This document shows positions 10,440 to 54,802 of a stretch of 64,000 bases of DNA, piece after piece. The DNA is from Haladaptatus sp. QDMS2 (lineage in GTDB: Archaea > Halobacteriota > Halobacteria > Halobacteriales > Halococcaceae), in the NCBI RefSeq assembly GCF_029338295.1, contig NZ_CP119791.1, positions 2,790,001-2,854,000 on the forward strand. The letters are read 5' to 3'. Made by a program: the position numbers and the translations under genes. The notes below the pieces were generated by a model. That model did not search any database. It was not told where the DNA came from and saw only the letters and a list, made by a program, of their open reading frames with translations. Each line of letters opens with the position of its first letter. Position 1 is the stretch's first letter.

Positions 10440-10583
10440 ATGCACTACTGCGACGTCTCCCTCGACGACAGTCCCGTGTCGAACGCTGAGACGGCGCTTT
10501 TCTTCGGGCTAGCCGCGCAGGGAGCAGCCGCGGCCGGCCGAACCGCCGCCGAACCGCGCACCCCGACCCACTGGCTACGATGA
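10440..10583 (+). CDS. Candidate 47-residue protein overlapping the DP2 start
   Basis: An open frame beginning MHYCDVSLDD and ending HWLR, whose TGA overlaps the ATG of DP2 by 4 bases (ATGA). A TATA-like element stands at the leaderless distance. The overlap pattern is the one seen between coupled genes elsewhere in the window, which favours translation; the middle is Ala/Gly-rich and I recognise no family. It may be a real small protein or a translated leader of DP2. Confidence 0.4.
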   Translation: MHYCDVSLDDSPVSNAETALFFGLAAQGAAAAGRTAAEPRTPTHWLR

Positions 10584-13500
10584 GACCGGAGGACGAACGC
10601 TACTTCGAGACGCTCGAAACCCGGCTCGACGAAGCGATGGCTCTCGCGACGAAAGCCAAAGAGCAAGGTAACGACCCGAAACCGGAAGTCGAGATTCCCA
10701 TCGCGAAGGACATGGCAGACCGCGTCGAGAACATCCTCGGCATCGAAGGCGTGGCCGCCCGCGTCCGCGAACTCGAAGACCAGATGAGCCGCGAGGAAGC
10801 GGCCCTCGAACTCGCCAAGGACTTCGCTGCTGGCGACGTCGGTGACTACGAAACCCGAGAAGGCAAAGTCGAAGGCGCGGTCAGAACGGCTGTCGCACTT
10901 CTCACCGAGGGCGTCGTCGCCGCGCCCATCGAGGGCATCGACCGCGTCGAAATCGTTCCGAACGACGACGGCACGGAGTTCGTCCGCGTCTTCTACGCTG
11001 GCCCCATTCGCTCCGCCGGGGGGACTGCACAGGCGCTCTCCGTGCTCGTGGCCGACTACACCCGCGCACTCATCGGCATCGACCAGTACAAACCGCGAGA
11101 CGACGAGGTCGAACGCTACGCAGAAGAACTCGAACTCTACGACAAAGAGACGGGCCTCCAGTACACGCCGAAGCCAAAGGAGACGAAGTTCATCGCCCGC
11201 AACTGCCCCATCTGCCTAGATGGGGAAGCCACCGGGAGTGAGGAAGTCTCCGGTTTTCGCGACTTAGAGCGCGTCGGCACCAACAACCCTCGTGGCGGGA
11301 TGTGTCTCGTCCTCGGCGAAGGGATTGCCCAGAAGGCACCGAAAATCAAACGCTACACCTCCGCCCTCGACGAAATCGACTGGCCGTGGCTCGACGATCT
11401 CATCGACGGGACCATCGGCAAGGAAGACGGGGAGGAACCCGAGGCCGACGAAGACGCACCCGACGAAGCGGAGGCGACCGAGGCCGAACCTGCGGCCGAC
11501 GAGCCAGAACCAGCCGTCGAAGTCGAAGGCCCACCGCGGGCCGAACCGAAGACCAAGTTCCTGCGCGACCTCATCGCCGGCCGTCCCGTGTTTTCACACC
11601 CGAGCATGCCCGGCGGCTTTCGCCTCCGCTACGGGCGCTCTCGCAACCACGGGTTCGCGACCGCTGGCGTCCAACCGGCGACGATGCACGTCGTGGACGA
11701 CTTCCTCGCAACCGGGACCCAAATCAAGACCGAACGCCCCGGAAAAGCGGGCGGGGTCATCCCGGTAGACTCCATCGAAGGCCCGACGGTCAAACTCGCG
11801 AACGGCGACGTTCGCCGCATCGACGACCCGGCCGAGGCGCTGAAACTCCGCAATGGAGTCGTCGAAATTCTAGACCTCGGCGAGTACCTCGTCAACTTCG
11901 GCGAGTTCGTCGAGAACAACCACCCGCTGATTCCCGCCTCGTACGTCTTCGAGTGGTGGGTCCAGGACTTCGAGCACGCCGGCGCGGACGTCCAGGCGCT
12001 CGCCGACGACGCCCGCGTTGACCTCGAACATCCCAGCCCCGAGCAGGCACTCACCTGGGCGCGAGAGTACGACGCGCCGCTTCACCCCGATTACACCTAC
12101 CTCTGGCACGACCTCTCGGTCGAGCAGTTCGAGATGCTCGCCGACGCCGTCGCCGAGGGCTACGTCGAAGACGGGGCTCTCTACGTCCCGAACGAAGACG
12201 ATCCTCGTCAGTCCCTCGAATGGCTTCTCATCGAACATTCACAGGGTCCCGAAGAAATCCGTATCCCGGTCTGGAAACCGCTCGTCGCCTCGCTTGGCCT
12301 CTCCGAATCGCTCGACAAACAGTGGGATGACCTCTCAGCCACGTCGCGTGCGTGGCCGAACGCGCACAATGCAGTAAACGAAGTCGCTCCGTTCTCCCTG
12401 CAGGAACGCGCCCCGACCCGCATCGGAAACCGGATGGGACGCCCCGAAAAGTCGGAGAAACGCGACCTGAGCCCGGCGGTCCACACCCTCTTCCCCATCG
12501 GCGAGGCCGGCGGCAGCCAGCGCTCCGTCTCAGAAGCCGCGAACCACTTCGCCGACCGCAACGCGACTCGGGGCGAAGTCGAAGTCACCGTCGGCAAACG
12601 AAAATGCACCGCCTGCGGTGAAATCACATTCAAGAACAAGTGCCCCGACTGCCAGGGCGCGACCGAGCCACAGTACGAATGCTGGTCCTGTGAAATCGAG
12701 GTCGAACCCGACGAGGGGGGCCGCGCCGAGTGTCCACGCTGTGGCAAAGCAGCCTCCACCGAGTGGCGTCGTCCGGTCAACATCCGCGAGGAGTACCGCA
12801 ACGCCCTCGCGAACGTCGGCGAGCGCGAAACCGCCTTTGACATCTTGAAGGGCGTGAAGGGCTTGACCTCGAAACACAAAACGCCCGAACCGATGGAGAA
12901 GGGCATCCTCCGGAGCAAAAACGGCGTCTCCGTGTTCAAAGACGGCACCGTCCGCTACGACATGACCGACCTGCCCGTGACCGCCATCCGCCCGGACGAA
13001 CTCGACATCACCGTCGGGCAACTCCGCGAACTTGGCTACAACGAGGACGTAAACGGCGACCCCTTAGAACACGACGACCAGGTCGTCGAACTTCGCGTCC
13101 AGGACATCGTCCTCTCGGACGGCGCAGCAGAGCACATGCTTCGCATCGGCGGCTTCGTCGACGACCTCCTGACCCAGTACTACGACCTCGAACCGTTCTA
13201 CGAGTTCGAAGACCGGCAGGACCTCGTGGGCGAACTCGTCTTCGGGATGGCTCCCCACACGAGCGCCGCCGTCGTCGGGCGCGTGATTGGGTTTACGAGT
13301 GCGGCCGTCGGCTATGCGCACCCTTATTTTCACGCAGCCAAGCGGCGGAATTGCTTCCATCCGACGACCAAGGTGTGGTACAAAGATGAGGGAGAGGAAT
13401 GGCATTACGACGAGATTGAATCACTCGTCGAGGAGCGTCTCAATGACCCACGCGAGGACGACTTTGGCGCACTCGTCTCTGAACTTGATGGTGATGTGTA

Positions 13501-15574
13501 TGTGCCCTCTGTGACTGAGGACGGTGAGGTCGTGAGAAAACGGGTCGAAGCGGTCTCAAAACACCCCTCGCCTGACCATCTGATTCAGATTGAGACGCGA
13601 AATGGTCGCTCTCTGAAGGTCACGCCAGAGCATTCGATGCTACGATGGGCAGAGGGAATTGACAGAGTCGATGCCCACGAGTTGGAGGTTGAAGACTCGA
13701 TTCCTGCGCCTAAGGAGATAGAGTTTGGGGGCGTTTCGACTCAAATCGATCTACTCGCCAAATTTGTGGAGAACGATTCGCTTCCAAATGAAGACCTTAT
13801 GGTCCGTGGACTCGGCGCAGACCGAATCAAGAAACTCTTCGATGAATCTACTGAGGGTGTAGGTTACCTGAAGCCAGTTGCTACAATCCTTGGATGTAGC
13901 AAGTCCACCGTTTACAATTGGGTGTCTAGAGACAGTGTCCCTGTCTCTGTTCTCATCATACTCCTTGGCCAAGAAGAGGTACTCACACGAGTTCCTGCAG
14001 AGGTTCATCTTTCGATTCGAAGAGATACAGCGACAGTCAATCGGCATCTCGCAATCGACGAATCATTTGCTATTCTCCTTGGATATTATGCAGCAGAAGG
14101 ATTCACACGTAGAGAGTCGGGTAGTTTCTACCAAACCACGATTTGTATCCCAGACGAAAAAGCTAGAGAGCACATCATCGAAACCTTCGCCGATGCGCTC
14201 TCGGTCGATGCTTTCGAAGAGAACGAGTGGGAAGTGACTGCTTCAAGTCGTCTTGTCGCGACGCTATTCGCAGATATCCTAGAAACGGGCTCTCGCGCCG
14301 AGAGTAAACGCATTCCAAATGCAATACTTAGTGCTCCTAACCCACTGCTTCGTGCGTTCCTTGCGGCATACTTCAGTGGGGATGGCAGCACGTCTGCTGA
14401 CCGTCTTGATATTCGAGCTCACACGATTAGCGATGAACTCAAGGAGGACTTGGTTGCGTCTCTGAAGCGCTTTGGAATCTCTTCGAAAGTAGCTCAAGAG
14501 ACTCGAACCATTGAATCTGGAATCGTTGCAGAATTCTACGAAGATGAATCGCCAGAATTCGAATCGTGGGTTTTGAAAATCTCGTCTGAGAACGCAGTCA
14601 GGTTTGCTAAACAAATCGGATTCCATCTCGACCGAAAACAATCGACGCTCCAGTCCGTGGTCAAATCGGCTGATGTCCGTTCTCAACGCATTCTTGGTGA
14701 CGGTGGAGAAGTCTGGCTTGACGAAATAACCTCCATCGAAATCGTCGAATCTGACACGGAACACACCTACTCCGTCACCGTCGAAGACACGAACACACTC
14801 GTCGCCAACGACCTCTTTACCGGTCAATGCGACGGTGACGAGGACTGCGTCATGCTCCTCATGGACGGCCTGCTCAACTTCTCGAAGCAGTACCTCCCGA
14901 ACAAGCGCGGCGGCCGCATGGACGCCCCGCTCGTGATGTCCTCGCGCATCGACCCCTCGGAAATCGACGACGAGGCCCACAACATGGACATCGTGGACCG
15001 CTACCCGCGCGAGTTCTACGAGGCCACCCGCGAGATGGTGGACCCCGGCGAGGTGGACATCAAACTCGCAGAGGACACCCTCGGGACCGACCGCGAGTAC
15101 ACCGACTTCCGCCACACCCACGAGACGTCGAACATCGCGCTCGGGCCGGACCTCTCTGCGTACAAGACCCTCGGGTCGATGATGGACAAGATGGACGCCC
15201 AGCTCGAACTCGCCCGAAAGCTCCGGGCTGTGGACGAAACCGACGTCGCAGAGCGCGTCATCGAGTACCACTTCATGCCCGACATCATCGGCAACCTCCG
15301 GGCGTTCTCCCGCCAGGAGACGCGCTGTCTCGACTGTGGCGAGAAGTTCCGCCGGTTCCCGCTCTCTGGGGACTGTCGGGAGTGTGGCGGCCGGGTCAAC
15401 CTCACCGTCCACGAAGGCTCAGTCAAGAAGTACGTAGACACCGCCATCAGGGTCGCAGAGGAGTACGGGGCCCGCGAGTACACCAAACAACGCCTCGACA
15501 TCCTCGACCAGTCGATTCGCTCGGTGTTCGAGAACGACAAGAACAAGGCGTCGAAAATTTCTGACTTCATGTGA
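10580..15574 (+). CDS. polC: DNA polymerase D large subunit DP2, with intein
   Basis: Catalytic subunit of the archaeal replicative family-D polymerase, which works with the small exonuclease subunit DP1 and PCNA. The precursor is 1664 residues; removing the intein (residues 925-1416) leaves 1172, normal for DP2. Seen: conserved GPIRSAGGTAQALSVLVADY near residue 140, a Cys-containing RNCPICLDG, a very acidic haloarchaeal insertion (about residues 278-325), a double zinc-ribbon region at about 676-730 (CTACG, CPDC, CWSC, CPRC), the catalytic-Asp motif CDGDED immediately after the intein, and a C-terminal zinc finger (CLDCG, CREC, about 1584-1605). The gene ends at the structured element described below. 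Confidence 0.97.
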   Translation: MRPEDERYFETLETRLDEAMALATKAKEQGNDPKPEVEIPIAKDMADRVENILGIEGVAARVRELEDQMSREEAALELAKDFAAGDVGDYETREGKVEGAVRTAVALLTEGVVAAPIEGIDRVEIVPNDDGTEFVRVFYAGPIRSAGGTAQALSVLVADYTRALIGIDQYKPRDDEVERYAEELELYDKETGLQYTPKPKETKFIARNCPICLDGEATGSEEVSGFRDLERVGTNNPRGGMCLVLGEGIAQKAPKIKRYTSALDEIDWPWLDDLIDGTIGKEDGEEPEADEDAPDEAEATEAEPAADEPEPAVEVEGPPRAEPKTKFLRDLIAGRPVFSHPSMPGGFRLRYGRSRNHGFATAGVQPATMHVVDDFLATGTQIKTERPGKAGGVIPVDSIEGPTVKLANGDVRRIDDPAEALKLRNGVVEILDLGEYLVNFGEFVENNHPLIPASYVFEWWVQDFEHAGADVQALADDARVDLEHPSPEQALTWAREYDAPLHPDYTYLWHDLSVEQFEMLADAVAEGYVEDGALYVPNEDDPRQSLEWLLIEHSQGPEEIRIPVWKPLVASLGLSESLDKQWDDLSATSRAWPNAHNAVNEVAPFSLQERAPTRIGNRMGRPEKSEKRDLSPAVHTLFPIGEAGGSQRSVSEAANHFADRNATRGEVEVTVGKRKCTACGEITFKNKCPDCQGATEPQYECWSCEIEVEPDEGGRAECPRCGKAASTEWRRPVNIREEYRNALANVGERETAFDILKGVKGLTSKHKTPEPMEKGILRSKNGVSVFKDGTVRYDMTDLPVTAIRPDELDITVGQLRELGYNEDVNGDPLEHDDQVVELRVQDIVLSDGAAEHMLRIGGFVDDLLTQYYDLEPFYEFEDRQDLVGELVFGMAPHTSAAVVGRVIGFTSAAVGYAHPYFHAAKRRNCFHPTTKVWYKDEGEEWHYDEIESLVEERLNDPREDDFGALVSELDGDVYVPSVTEDGEVVRKRVEAVSKHPSPDHLIQIETRNGRSLKVTPEHSMLRWAEGIDRVDAHELEVEDSIPAPKEIEFGGVSTQIDLLAKFVENDSLPNEDLMVRGLGADRIKKLFDESTEGVGYLKPVATILGCSKSTVYNWVSRDSVPVSVLIILLGQEEVLTRVPAEVHLSIRRDTATVNRHLAIDESFAILLGYYAAEGFTRRESGSFYQTTICIPDEKAREHIIETFADALSVDAFEENEWEVTASSRLVATLFADILETGSRAESKRIPNAILSAPNPLLRAFLAAYFSGDGSTSADRLDIRAHTISDELKEDLVASLKRFGISSKVAQETRTIESGIVAEFYEDESPEFESWVLKISSENAVRFAKQIGFHLDRKQSTLQSVVKSADVRSQRILGDGGEVWLDEITSIEIVESDTEHTYSVTVEDTNTLVANDLFTGQCDGDEDCVMLLMDGLLNFSKQYLPNKRGGRMDAPLVMSSRIDPSEIDDEAHNMDIVDRYPREFYEATREMVDPGEVDIKLAEDTLGTDREYTDFRHTHETSNIALGPDLSAYKTLGSMMDKMDAQLELARKLRAVDETDVAERVIEYHFMPDIIGNLRAFSRQETRCLDCGEKFRRFPLSGDCRECGGRVNLTVHEGSVKKYVDTAIRVAEEYGAREYTKQRLDILDQSIRSVFENDKNKASKISDFM
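13352..14827 (+). mobile_element. DP2 intein with LAGLIDADG endonuclease motifs
   Basis: A 492-residue protein-splicing element in phase within DP2. It starts with Cys (CFHPTTKVWY, block A), has block B GRSLKVTPEHSML, LAGLIDADG motifs LLGYYAAEGF (about residue 1166) and FLAAYFSGDGS (about 1260), a helix-turn-helix-like VATILGCSKSTVYNWV (about 1098-1113), and a C-terminal splicing region HTYSVTVEDTNTLVANDLF ending FTGQ before extein Cys1417. The C-terminal residue is Gln rather than Asn, and the penultimate residue is Gly rather than His; a Gln ending is known for the Pyrococcus abyssi PolII intein at this site. The coding DNA is visibly richer in A and T than the flanking exteins, which suggests transfer. 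Both endonuclease motifs look intact. Confidence 0.95.
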
Positions 15575-15669
15575 GCGCACCTTTTTCTGCGTCGGGGTCG
15601 CTTCGCGACCCACTCCTTGAAAAACGCGCCCGAAAAAGGCCGAATGCGCCGACGGCGCATTCGGGTGCG
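15575..15669 (+). repeat. Nested hairpin element, copy 1 (3' of DP2)
   Basis: It begins on the base after the DP2 stop. Stem A pairs CGCAC (15576-15580) with GTGCG (15665-15669). Inside it, stem B pairs CTTTTTC (15581-15587) with GAAAAAG (15632-15638) and encloses a perfect hairpin GGGTCGC/GCGACCC (15595-15611, loop TTC). Next to B stands an 11-base-pair hairpin (15640-15664, loop GAC). The same layout recurs at 54623-54715. It is probably a 3' UTR or terminator element; function is inference. Confidence 0.7.
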
Positions 15670-15885
15670 ATGCTTGCTGGTTTCCGCAACCGCACCGCAA
15701 CCGCATTATTTTACTTTCTTTGTACTCAGTGGCCTTACTTCCGGTTGATTTCTACCAGTTGTGTAGAGTAGTCCCTGACCGCACCGAAACCGCACTGCTC
15801 ATCGTTCCTGACTTCCGTTTCGTCTCTCCGCAGTCCGTGACTTTTCGTTCCGTTTTCGTTGACTGTTTTCGAAAATGGCGAGGAG

Positions 15886-54032: not shown

Positions 54033-54623
54033 ATGGACGAAAAAACAGAATCCCTCCGAAACCTCTTCCTCGAAGTCGCCGGGGACGCGACGGTTACCGA
54101 ACAACAGGAGGAGGGGCGCGGGTCGCTCACGCCCAAACAGAGCGTCGACGAGCGCCTGCGCGCGGTCATCGCGAAGATGCGCGACCGCTACGAGTTCACC
54201 ACCGACCTCTCGGACGGTGACCTCGCCGCGCTCGTCAACGCCTACTACGACGAGGTGAAAGACGCCACCATCGCAAAACAACTCGACGTGTCGCCCGCCA
54301 CCGTCTTCCGCGCTCGCATGGATCTCCACCTCATTCGTGAACGCGACCTCGACGCCTCCTTCGAGGTGGACGCCCTCCGAGCGGCGCTCTCCGACGGTAA
54401 ATCGGTCGCCACCATCGCCGACGAACTCGACATCGCCGAATCCACCGTGCGCCGCCACCGCCGCATCATCGAAACGCAGGCGGCAATCCGCCGCGTCAGC
54501 CAGCGGTTCGTGAGCGAGTTCGAAGAAATCCTCGACGCGACCGGTTCCTCGATGACGAAATCCGCCCGCGAAACTGGGCTGGAGGACGCCACCGAAGGAA
54601 TGGAGTCGAACGTCTCGTTCTAG
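54033..54623 (+). CDS. HTH protein similar to conditioned-medium-induced protein 4
   Basis: A 196-residue acidic protein. Residues 85-110 (ATIAKQLDVSPATVFRARMDL) and 130-150 (SVATIADELDIAESTVRRHR) are two helix-turn-helix segments, and the beginning MDEKTESLRNLFLEVAGDAT matches the haloarchaeal family named Cmi4 (from memory). DNA binding is likely; targets and physiological role are unknown. It is divergent from bioY, and its TAG stop is the first base group of the nested hairpin element. Confidence 0.7.
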   Translation: MDEKTESLRNLFLEVAGDATVTEQQEEGRGSLTPKQSVDERLRAVIAKMRDRYEFTTDLSDGDLAALVNAYYDEVKDATIAKQLDVSPATVFRARMDLHLIRERDLDASFEVDALRAALSDGKSVATIADELDIAESTVRRHRRIIETQAAIRRVSQRFVSEFEEILDATGSSMTKSARETGLEDATEGMESNVSF

Positions 54624-54715
54624 CACCTTTTTGCTTCGGGGGGGATCGCTTCGCGACCCCGCTTGCAAAAACGTGCGCGAAAAAGGCCGAACTCGCGGTT
54701 GGAGAGTTCGGGTGC
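54623..54715 (+). repeat. Nested hairpin element, copy 2 (3' of the Cmi4-like gene)
   Basis: Same layout as at 15575-15669. Stem A: GCACC (54623-54627, including the G of TAG) with GGTGC (54711-54715). Stem B: TTTTT (54628-54632) with AAAAA (54680-54684). Hairpin 1: GGGG-A-TCGC/GCGACCCC (54641-54660). Hairpin 2: CCGAACTC/GAGTTCGG (54687-54711), where both sides of the stem differ from copy 1 yet still pair. Confidence 0.7.
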
Positions 54716-54727
54716 CGCGCTGGACAA

Positions 54728-54802
54728 CCTCCCAACCGCAACGCACTGCACTGCAACCGCAACGCACTGCACCGCAACCGCACAGCATCGCAACCGCAAC
54801 CG
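54728..54802. repeat. CCGCAAC/GCACTG repeat tract
   Basis: About 75 bases made of CAACCGCAAC and GCACTGCA units, imperfectly repeated, lying between the hairpin element and the TATA box of the Cas4-like gene. A shorter version follows copy 1 of the element at 15684-15705, so tract and element travel together. No known function. Confidence 0.65.

Follow-up and report, generated by a model that had tools for sequence, protein, structure and literature searches.

Two-hairpin palindromes at haloarchaeal gene ends form a widespread family of candidate two-way transcription terminators

The window, a stretch of 64,000 nucleotides from the genome of Haladaptatus sp. QDMS2 (contig NZ_CP119791.1, positions 2,790,001 to 2,854,000), contains two copies of a folded DNA element of about 95 letters, each located at the end of a gene on the plus strand. 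Copy 1 (15575–15670, plus strand; covariance-model match at C1:2805575-2805670 of the host) lies directly after the TGA stop codon (15572–15574) of the gene for the large subunit of DNA polymerase D (DP2; 10580–15574, plus strand). Copy 2 (54621–54717, plus strand; covariance-model match at host C1:2844621-2844717) overlaps the TAG stop codon (54621–54623) of the gene for an HTH-domain protein (54033–54623, plus strand) and uses the G of this codon. The placement of both copies at gene ends, including the start of the first at 15575, had been claimed in the original prediction and is confirmed here. In addition, the DP2 gene apparently carries an intein, judged by the translation only: several hundred residues are inserted in frame between AAKRRN and CDGDED.

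The element is composed of a 4-nt arm, one C, a run of five T, an inner stem that carries a GC hairpin (hairpin 1), a run of five A (A-run 1), an 8-nt linker, a second run of five A (A-run 2), GG and a second hairpin (hairpin 2), and all positions given here are on the plus strand. In copy 1, the left arm GCAC (15577–15580) is followed by the T-run (15582–15586), which is located 7 nt past the stop codon and is followed by C. Hairpin 1 (15595–15611) reads GGGTCGC-TTC-GCGACCC, and A-run 1 (15620–15624) is the partner of the T-run. The linker (15625–15632) contains the right arm GCGC (15626–15629), which forms three of four pairs with the left arm; the left arm was assigned from the covariation of columns 3–6 with columns 53–56 across 80 copies. 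A-run 2 (15633–15637), which on the antisense strand would be the first U-tract met by an incoming polymerase, is followed by hairpin 2 (15640–15664), with eight covarying pairs and, on the antisense strand, CCTTTTT directly after it. Copy 2 repeats this arrangement, with the left arm GCAC (54623–54626) paired with GTGC (54673–54676), the T-run (54628–54632) 4 nt past the stop codon, A-run 1 at 54667–54671, the 8-nt linker at 54672–54679, A-run 2 at 54680–54684 and hairpin 2 at 54687–54711. Linker bases 2–5 are complementary to the 4-nt arm in both window copies. The T5/A5 stem enclosing a GGG..CGC hairpin, as originally described, is likewise present in both. Hairpin 2 reads CCGAATGCGCC-GAC-GGCGCATTCGG in copy 1 and CCGAACTC-GCGGTTGGA-GAGTTCGG in copy 2, in line with the earlier claim of compensatory change, because the letters differ between the copies while the pairing is retained. 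The folding energies are better than those of dinucleotide shuffles, with z-scores of -3.8 for copy 1 and -2.8 for copy 2.

Compensatory change is abundant in the wider family of copies. In a MAFFT alignment made with no structure imposed, both partners change in 12 of 28 pairs, giving 41 double-change cells compared with 12 in shuffles and 2–7 in slid controls. The alignment of 80 copies, which was fitted to the covariance model and is hence biased towards it, yields 419 double-change cells over 23 pairs, compared with 141 in shuffles and 48–80 in slid controls. Mutual information calculated from the same model-fitted alignment with no pairs assumed ranks the helix pairs at the top, and column pairs 70–88 (CG/AT/GC/TA) and 4–55 exchange through four states. 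Covariation over the 80 copies is therefore strong, whereas its absence had been set beforehand as the outcome that would speak against the original prediction. The true partner of the outer arm is formed by the four bases located one base past A-run 1, with the combinations GCAC/GTGC, GAAC/GTTC, CGAC/GTCG and CCAC/GTGG. An outer stem GCACC ... GGTGC had been proposed earlier; it can be written in both window copies, yet only 35% of its cells pair across the 80 copies, compared with 94% for the helix holding the arm and the T-run, and it was rejected as the closing helix.

The T-run and both A-runs correspond in length (4, 5 or 6). The length of the T-run correlates with that of A-run 2 (r 0.73, reached in 0 of 20000 permutations), and where sister species carry the element at the same gene end, T4 forms bear A4 twice and T6 forms bear A6 twice. 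Of 85 instances of the linker between the A-runs, 80 measure 8 nt. Linker positions 1 (column 52) and 8 (column 59) covary strongly in combinations that are not standard pairs (C..G, T..C, C..T and G..C), and this covariation is linked to the letter preceding the T-run. At three loci (L148 and L149, the DP2 ends of G001 and G002, and L043), one or two extra palindromes interrupt the linker; since the outer parts stay intact around the interruption, the A-run 2 box acts like an independent module.

The two strands of the element are not equivalent. The long hairpin is predicted to be stabler on the antisense strand in 74 of 80 copies and in 41 of 43 copies (115 of 123 in total), with an advantage of about 5.5 kcal/mol under RNA parameters and 3 kcal/mol under DNA parameters. 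The mismatches contribute to this preference: where conserved positions are unpaired, the gene strand carries pyrimidines and the antisense strand correspondingly purines (tandem G-A, G-G). G-U and A-C cells are about equally frequent (27 versus 30, and 23 versus 21), so selection on the sense RNA is not indicated; the G-U excess considered as a signature of a sense-strand RNA is absent. Beyond the noisy inner stem A-C is slightly commoner, to which no weight is given as the lineages are not independent. The earlier reading of the element as an RNA fold under selection in 3' UTRs is thus unsupported as stated, and the T-run that should end transcripts precedes the fold on the sense strand.

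These elements constitute a family previously unlisted in haloarchaea. The host genome contains at least 13 relatives by blastn. A covariance model (R1) built from 11 host copies matched 45 of the 60 genomes searched, the host among these, and a model built from 80 copies (R2) matched 159 of 195 genomes of the haloarchaeal order at a cut-off of E 1e-6. In a phylum sample of 148 genomes, 16 matched, all within the order, and the covariance-model search found no element in the approximately 124 related genomes of this sample from outside it. The order and phylum runs scored 21–68 candidates per genome, hence their copy counts are lower bounds; four genomes that were scored more fully contain 15, 30, 32 and 44 copies (E 1e-4). 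All host copies found are located on the main chromosome, which makes up 76% of the genome, and none was found on the secondary replicons, two of which have plasmid counterparts in Haladaptatus sp. DYSN1 and YSMS36 (matches of 98–99.9%). The listed copies of G105, G062 and G099 are each confined to one contig. Among 80 viral contigs selected for the T5/TCGGGT motif, the covariance model gave 0 matches, which doubles as a control of its specificity, and plasmid and phage collections gave no matches by blastn, a weak method for so short and variable a query. An origin from haloviruses or plasmids was rejected on the grounds of these searches. Rfam returned no match at the gathering score for the whole window or for elements at 20 other loci, the sub-threshold matches being attributed to chance, and no match to the family was found in the open-access literature.

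Gene positions around the copies were assigned with a codon model trained on the element loci. Among 127 copies, 79 start at a same-strand stop codon, and in 78 of these 79 a T-run of at least four T is located 2–11 nt past the stop. This sharp anchoring agrees with the tie to gene ends on which the original prediction also depended. Five copies abut the 3' ends of tRNA genes predicted by ARAGORN, with the element start 0–3 nt away, and five further copies follow duplicated tRNA 3' ends. The copies that follow partial 3'-end duplications (L120, L121, L141 and L143) look as though the sequence originally downstream of the tRNA, palindrome included, had been pushed away by an integrative element. 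Two copies follow a putative ribosomal protein L40e, which was missed by the gene caller and identified by eye. A further 17 copies are located upstream of divergent genes, and for 11 of the 17 the distance to the start codon is 36–56 nt, which places them immediately beyond a leaderless promoter. About 20 of the 127 copies have no assigned placement. The right edge of the element is unanchored, as the gene starts to its right are mostly more than 100 nt off.

The genes upstream of the copies are housekeeping genes. In the window, T5 occurs within 150 nt of 14 of 56 gene ends and within 10 nt only at the two genes that end with an element. Convergent gene pairs are not enriched (26 of 58 copies versus 60 of 147), and terminators specific to convergent genes were rejected on this 58-copy set; in two further genomes, 14 of 21 copies lie between convergent genes. 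Most Haladaptatus copies are followed on the gene strand by C-rich, G-poor CCGCA repeats (15690–15703, 15780–15795 and 54738–54800 in the window), which recall rut-like sites. CCGCA occurs 1.57 times per 120 nt after 30 copies, compared with 0.16 expected from the window, and almost never on the other strand.

Copies have been retained at the same genes over long distances. The DP2 gene ends with the element in each of the three Haladaptatus genomes as well as in G003, G016 and G041, and with a T4-like form in G039, whereas others lack it. At the ends of genes for a PAPS-reductase-like protein, the element is present in some form in about half of 30 examined. Carriers of the element among named species are Halostella pelagica, Halobacterium sp. 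CBA1126, Haloferax profundi, H. marinum and four Halorientalis species. The same gene ends thus keep the element across species and families despite changed letters. With 15–44 copies and an assumed number of about 3000 genes, approximately 1% of genes are occupied, so this recurrence at the same genes is not due to chance. Two genomes also hold dispersed near-identical copies with different flanks, at 95% identity over 172 nt in G172 and at 95–99% over 150–240 nt in G048, which indicates that the unit can spread; several of the dispersed copies in both genomes lie away from stop codons. In the genus of G048 and G037, recent dispersal is visible as near-identical copies (L330-L335 and L338-L340), some with tandem CCACCTTTTTCTCGTCGG starts. 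Moreover, a unit of about 90 nt is present in some Haloferax species and not in others, the element-free species being about 87 nt shorter, with flanks too diverged for placement of the junction. The arm sequence is common within a genus and different between genera.

Taken together, the left end at a gene 3' end or outside a promoter, combined with a single T-run towards the gene and two towards the outside, fits a two-way terminator. We consider it about an even prospect that the element is a haloarchaeal gene-end palindrome terminating transcription in both directions and so insulating the gene to its left. On the sense side, RNA polymerase that has passed through a protein or tRNA gene would stop at the run of 4–6 T located 2–11 nt past the gene end, leaving nearly no 3' UTR. 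In the antisense direction, a polymerase arriving from the right would transcribe hairpin 2 and then two U-tracts that share one length and are separated by 8 nt, a layout that should be the one best bound by the archaeal termination nuclease aCPSF1/FttA. Antisense or read-through transcription would then halt before the gene, or before its promoter where the left gene points away. The long hairpin between the runs may contribute to this. The fold with its covariation, the runs, the placement and the distribution are observed directly, whereas termination and the part of aCPSF1 in it are inferred. The proposal agrees with what is known of archaeal U-tract terminators, which likewise place a run of 4–6 T just past the gene (PMC7237163, PMC8716108); in Haloferax volcanii, T5C terminates transcription with 95% efficiency in vivo (PMC7237163). 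Strong aCPSF1 terminators resemble the antisense strand of the element, where two U-tracts also lie close together, and work in Methanococcus has shown that aCPSF1 needs two U-tracts of at least four U for efficient binding (PMC8716108). Two such tracts occur on the antisense strand only, the sense strand having one run. While archaeal terminators require no hairpin (PMC8716108), the runs of the element are arms of a conserved, co-evolving, multicopy palindrome. On the antisense strand, a GC hairpin directly followed by a T-run recalls bacterial intrinsic terminators, but in the direction of the gene the T-run of the element precedes the hairpins. A terminator scan of the minus strand flagged copy 1 (hairpin 2 followed by T5) and did not flag copy 2, whose loop of 9 is over the limit of the scan.

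Termination alone does not explain the covariation of the hairpin, since efficient T-run stops in both directions would leave it rarely transcribed. Nor does it account for the tracking of the T-run by A-run 2 or for linker positions 1 and 8 covarying without pairing. The lack of enrichment between convergent genes, the dispersed near-identical copies of G172 and G048, and the failure of the scan to flag copy 2 also count against the proposal. A more elaborate form of the terminator proposal, which we put forward only tentatively, holds that the elements are archaeal insulators throughout the order, in which the gene-side T-run ends sense transcription, the outer hairpin and tandem U-tract are offered to aCPSF1/FttA on antisense RNA, and the T-run can pair with either A-run as a switch between alternative folds, hence the co-evolution of run lengths.

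The main rival is mobility, and of the options listed originally a terminator fits best, while a mobile palindromic unit fits some genera. A small non-autonomous palindrome, like REP or the SMR of Haloquadratum, could have been moved by some enzyme as folded single-stranded DNA and have inserted at, or survived best at, gene ends, with compensatory changes arising from the need for a DNA hairpin in movement or from templated palindrome correction. We regard this as a plausible alternative, though short of probable. It is favoured by the differently flanked copies of G172 and G048, the genus-specific arms, the unit present or absent between Haloferax species, and pairs that are almost all Watson-Crick with no G-U excess, as expected for DNA. 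Insertion alone, however, gives neither the 2–11 nt distance from the stop codon nor the same spacing after tRNA genes, and the model sits poorly with the many orthologous gene ends that retain the element across genera and families and with the lack of finds on the host secondary replicons and in the plasmid, phage and viral collections. Furthermore, the Y1 domain was not found in G001, G041, G048, G052, G059 and other copy-holding genomes, several of them, including G048, rich in copies; judged by distribution, mobilisation by an IS200/IS605 Y1 transposase is not needed. Bacterial REP/BIME are similarly multicopy extragenic palindromes, many of which have a stop codon no more than 15 nt away (PMC12306157), but the haloarchaeal element, with 15–44 copies in each of four genomes, has a larger two-hairpin structure, a fixed gene-side end and copies kept at orthologous gene ends, and the cognate Y1 (TnpA-REP) transposase of REP/RAYT systems is missing from many copy-rich genomes. 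The SMR/PATEs of Haloquadratum share a length of about 80–110 bp, inverted terminal arms, a haloarchaeal host and the lack of an internal transposase gene; SMR-A target IS605 palindromes or PATEs, and their copies are commonly more than 95% alike (PMC3119063). In contrast, the neighbours of the element are housekeeping and tRNA genes, and most copies differ strongly, except in G048 and G172. Integron attC sites are imperfect palindromes right after stop codons, with a variable centre and a bottom strand that folds better. The element resembles them in all three respects, whereas its outer boxes vary by lineage, its copies stay at orthologous housekeeping genes, and no cassette array was seen. 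Perhaps the true history joins both readings, with a mobile DNA palindrome later retained as a terminator.

Two further explanations appear weaker. An RNA element in the 3' UTR of the sense strand, shielding messages from 3'-5' decay or marking a processing site, would accord with the strong covariation, the conserved internal loop and the position at gene 3' ends. It is nevertheless unlikely, as copies also lie at the ends of tRNA genes and behind promoters, the fold is less stable on the sense strand, G-U is not favoured over A-C, and with the T-run before the fold most transcripts should end ahead of it (PMC7237163). Palindromes with A/T runs at gene 3' ends, confined in the host to the main chromosome, could also suggest a binding site at which a protein, such as gyrase or one of the nucleoid, acts on supercoiled DNA that may be in cruciform shape. 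Gyrase binding by the REP/BIME elements of E. coli would speak for such a site. The stem letters vary freely, however, which a sequence-reading protein would forbid outside the runs and internal loop, and we hold this explanation to be very improbable.

The usual description of an archaeal terminator is a plain U-tract with no structure. If the two-way terminator proposal is true, a structured element at the ends of housekeeping and tRNA genes would mean that structure plays a part in archaeal termination, as does a second signal facing the other way. The elements would provide defined sites for testing the action of aCPSF1/FttA and the shielding of genes from antisense transcription, and the covariance model can be used directly for Rfam and genome annotation. 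Moreover, the family would then bear on how repeats turn into built-in parts of genes.
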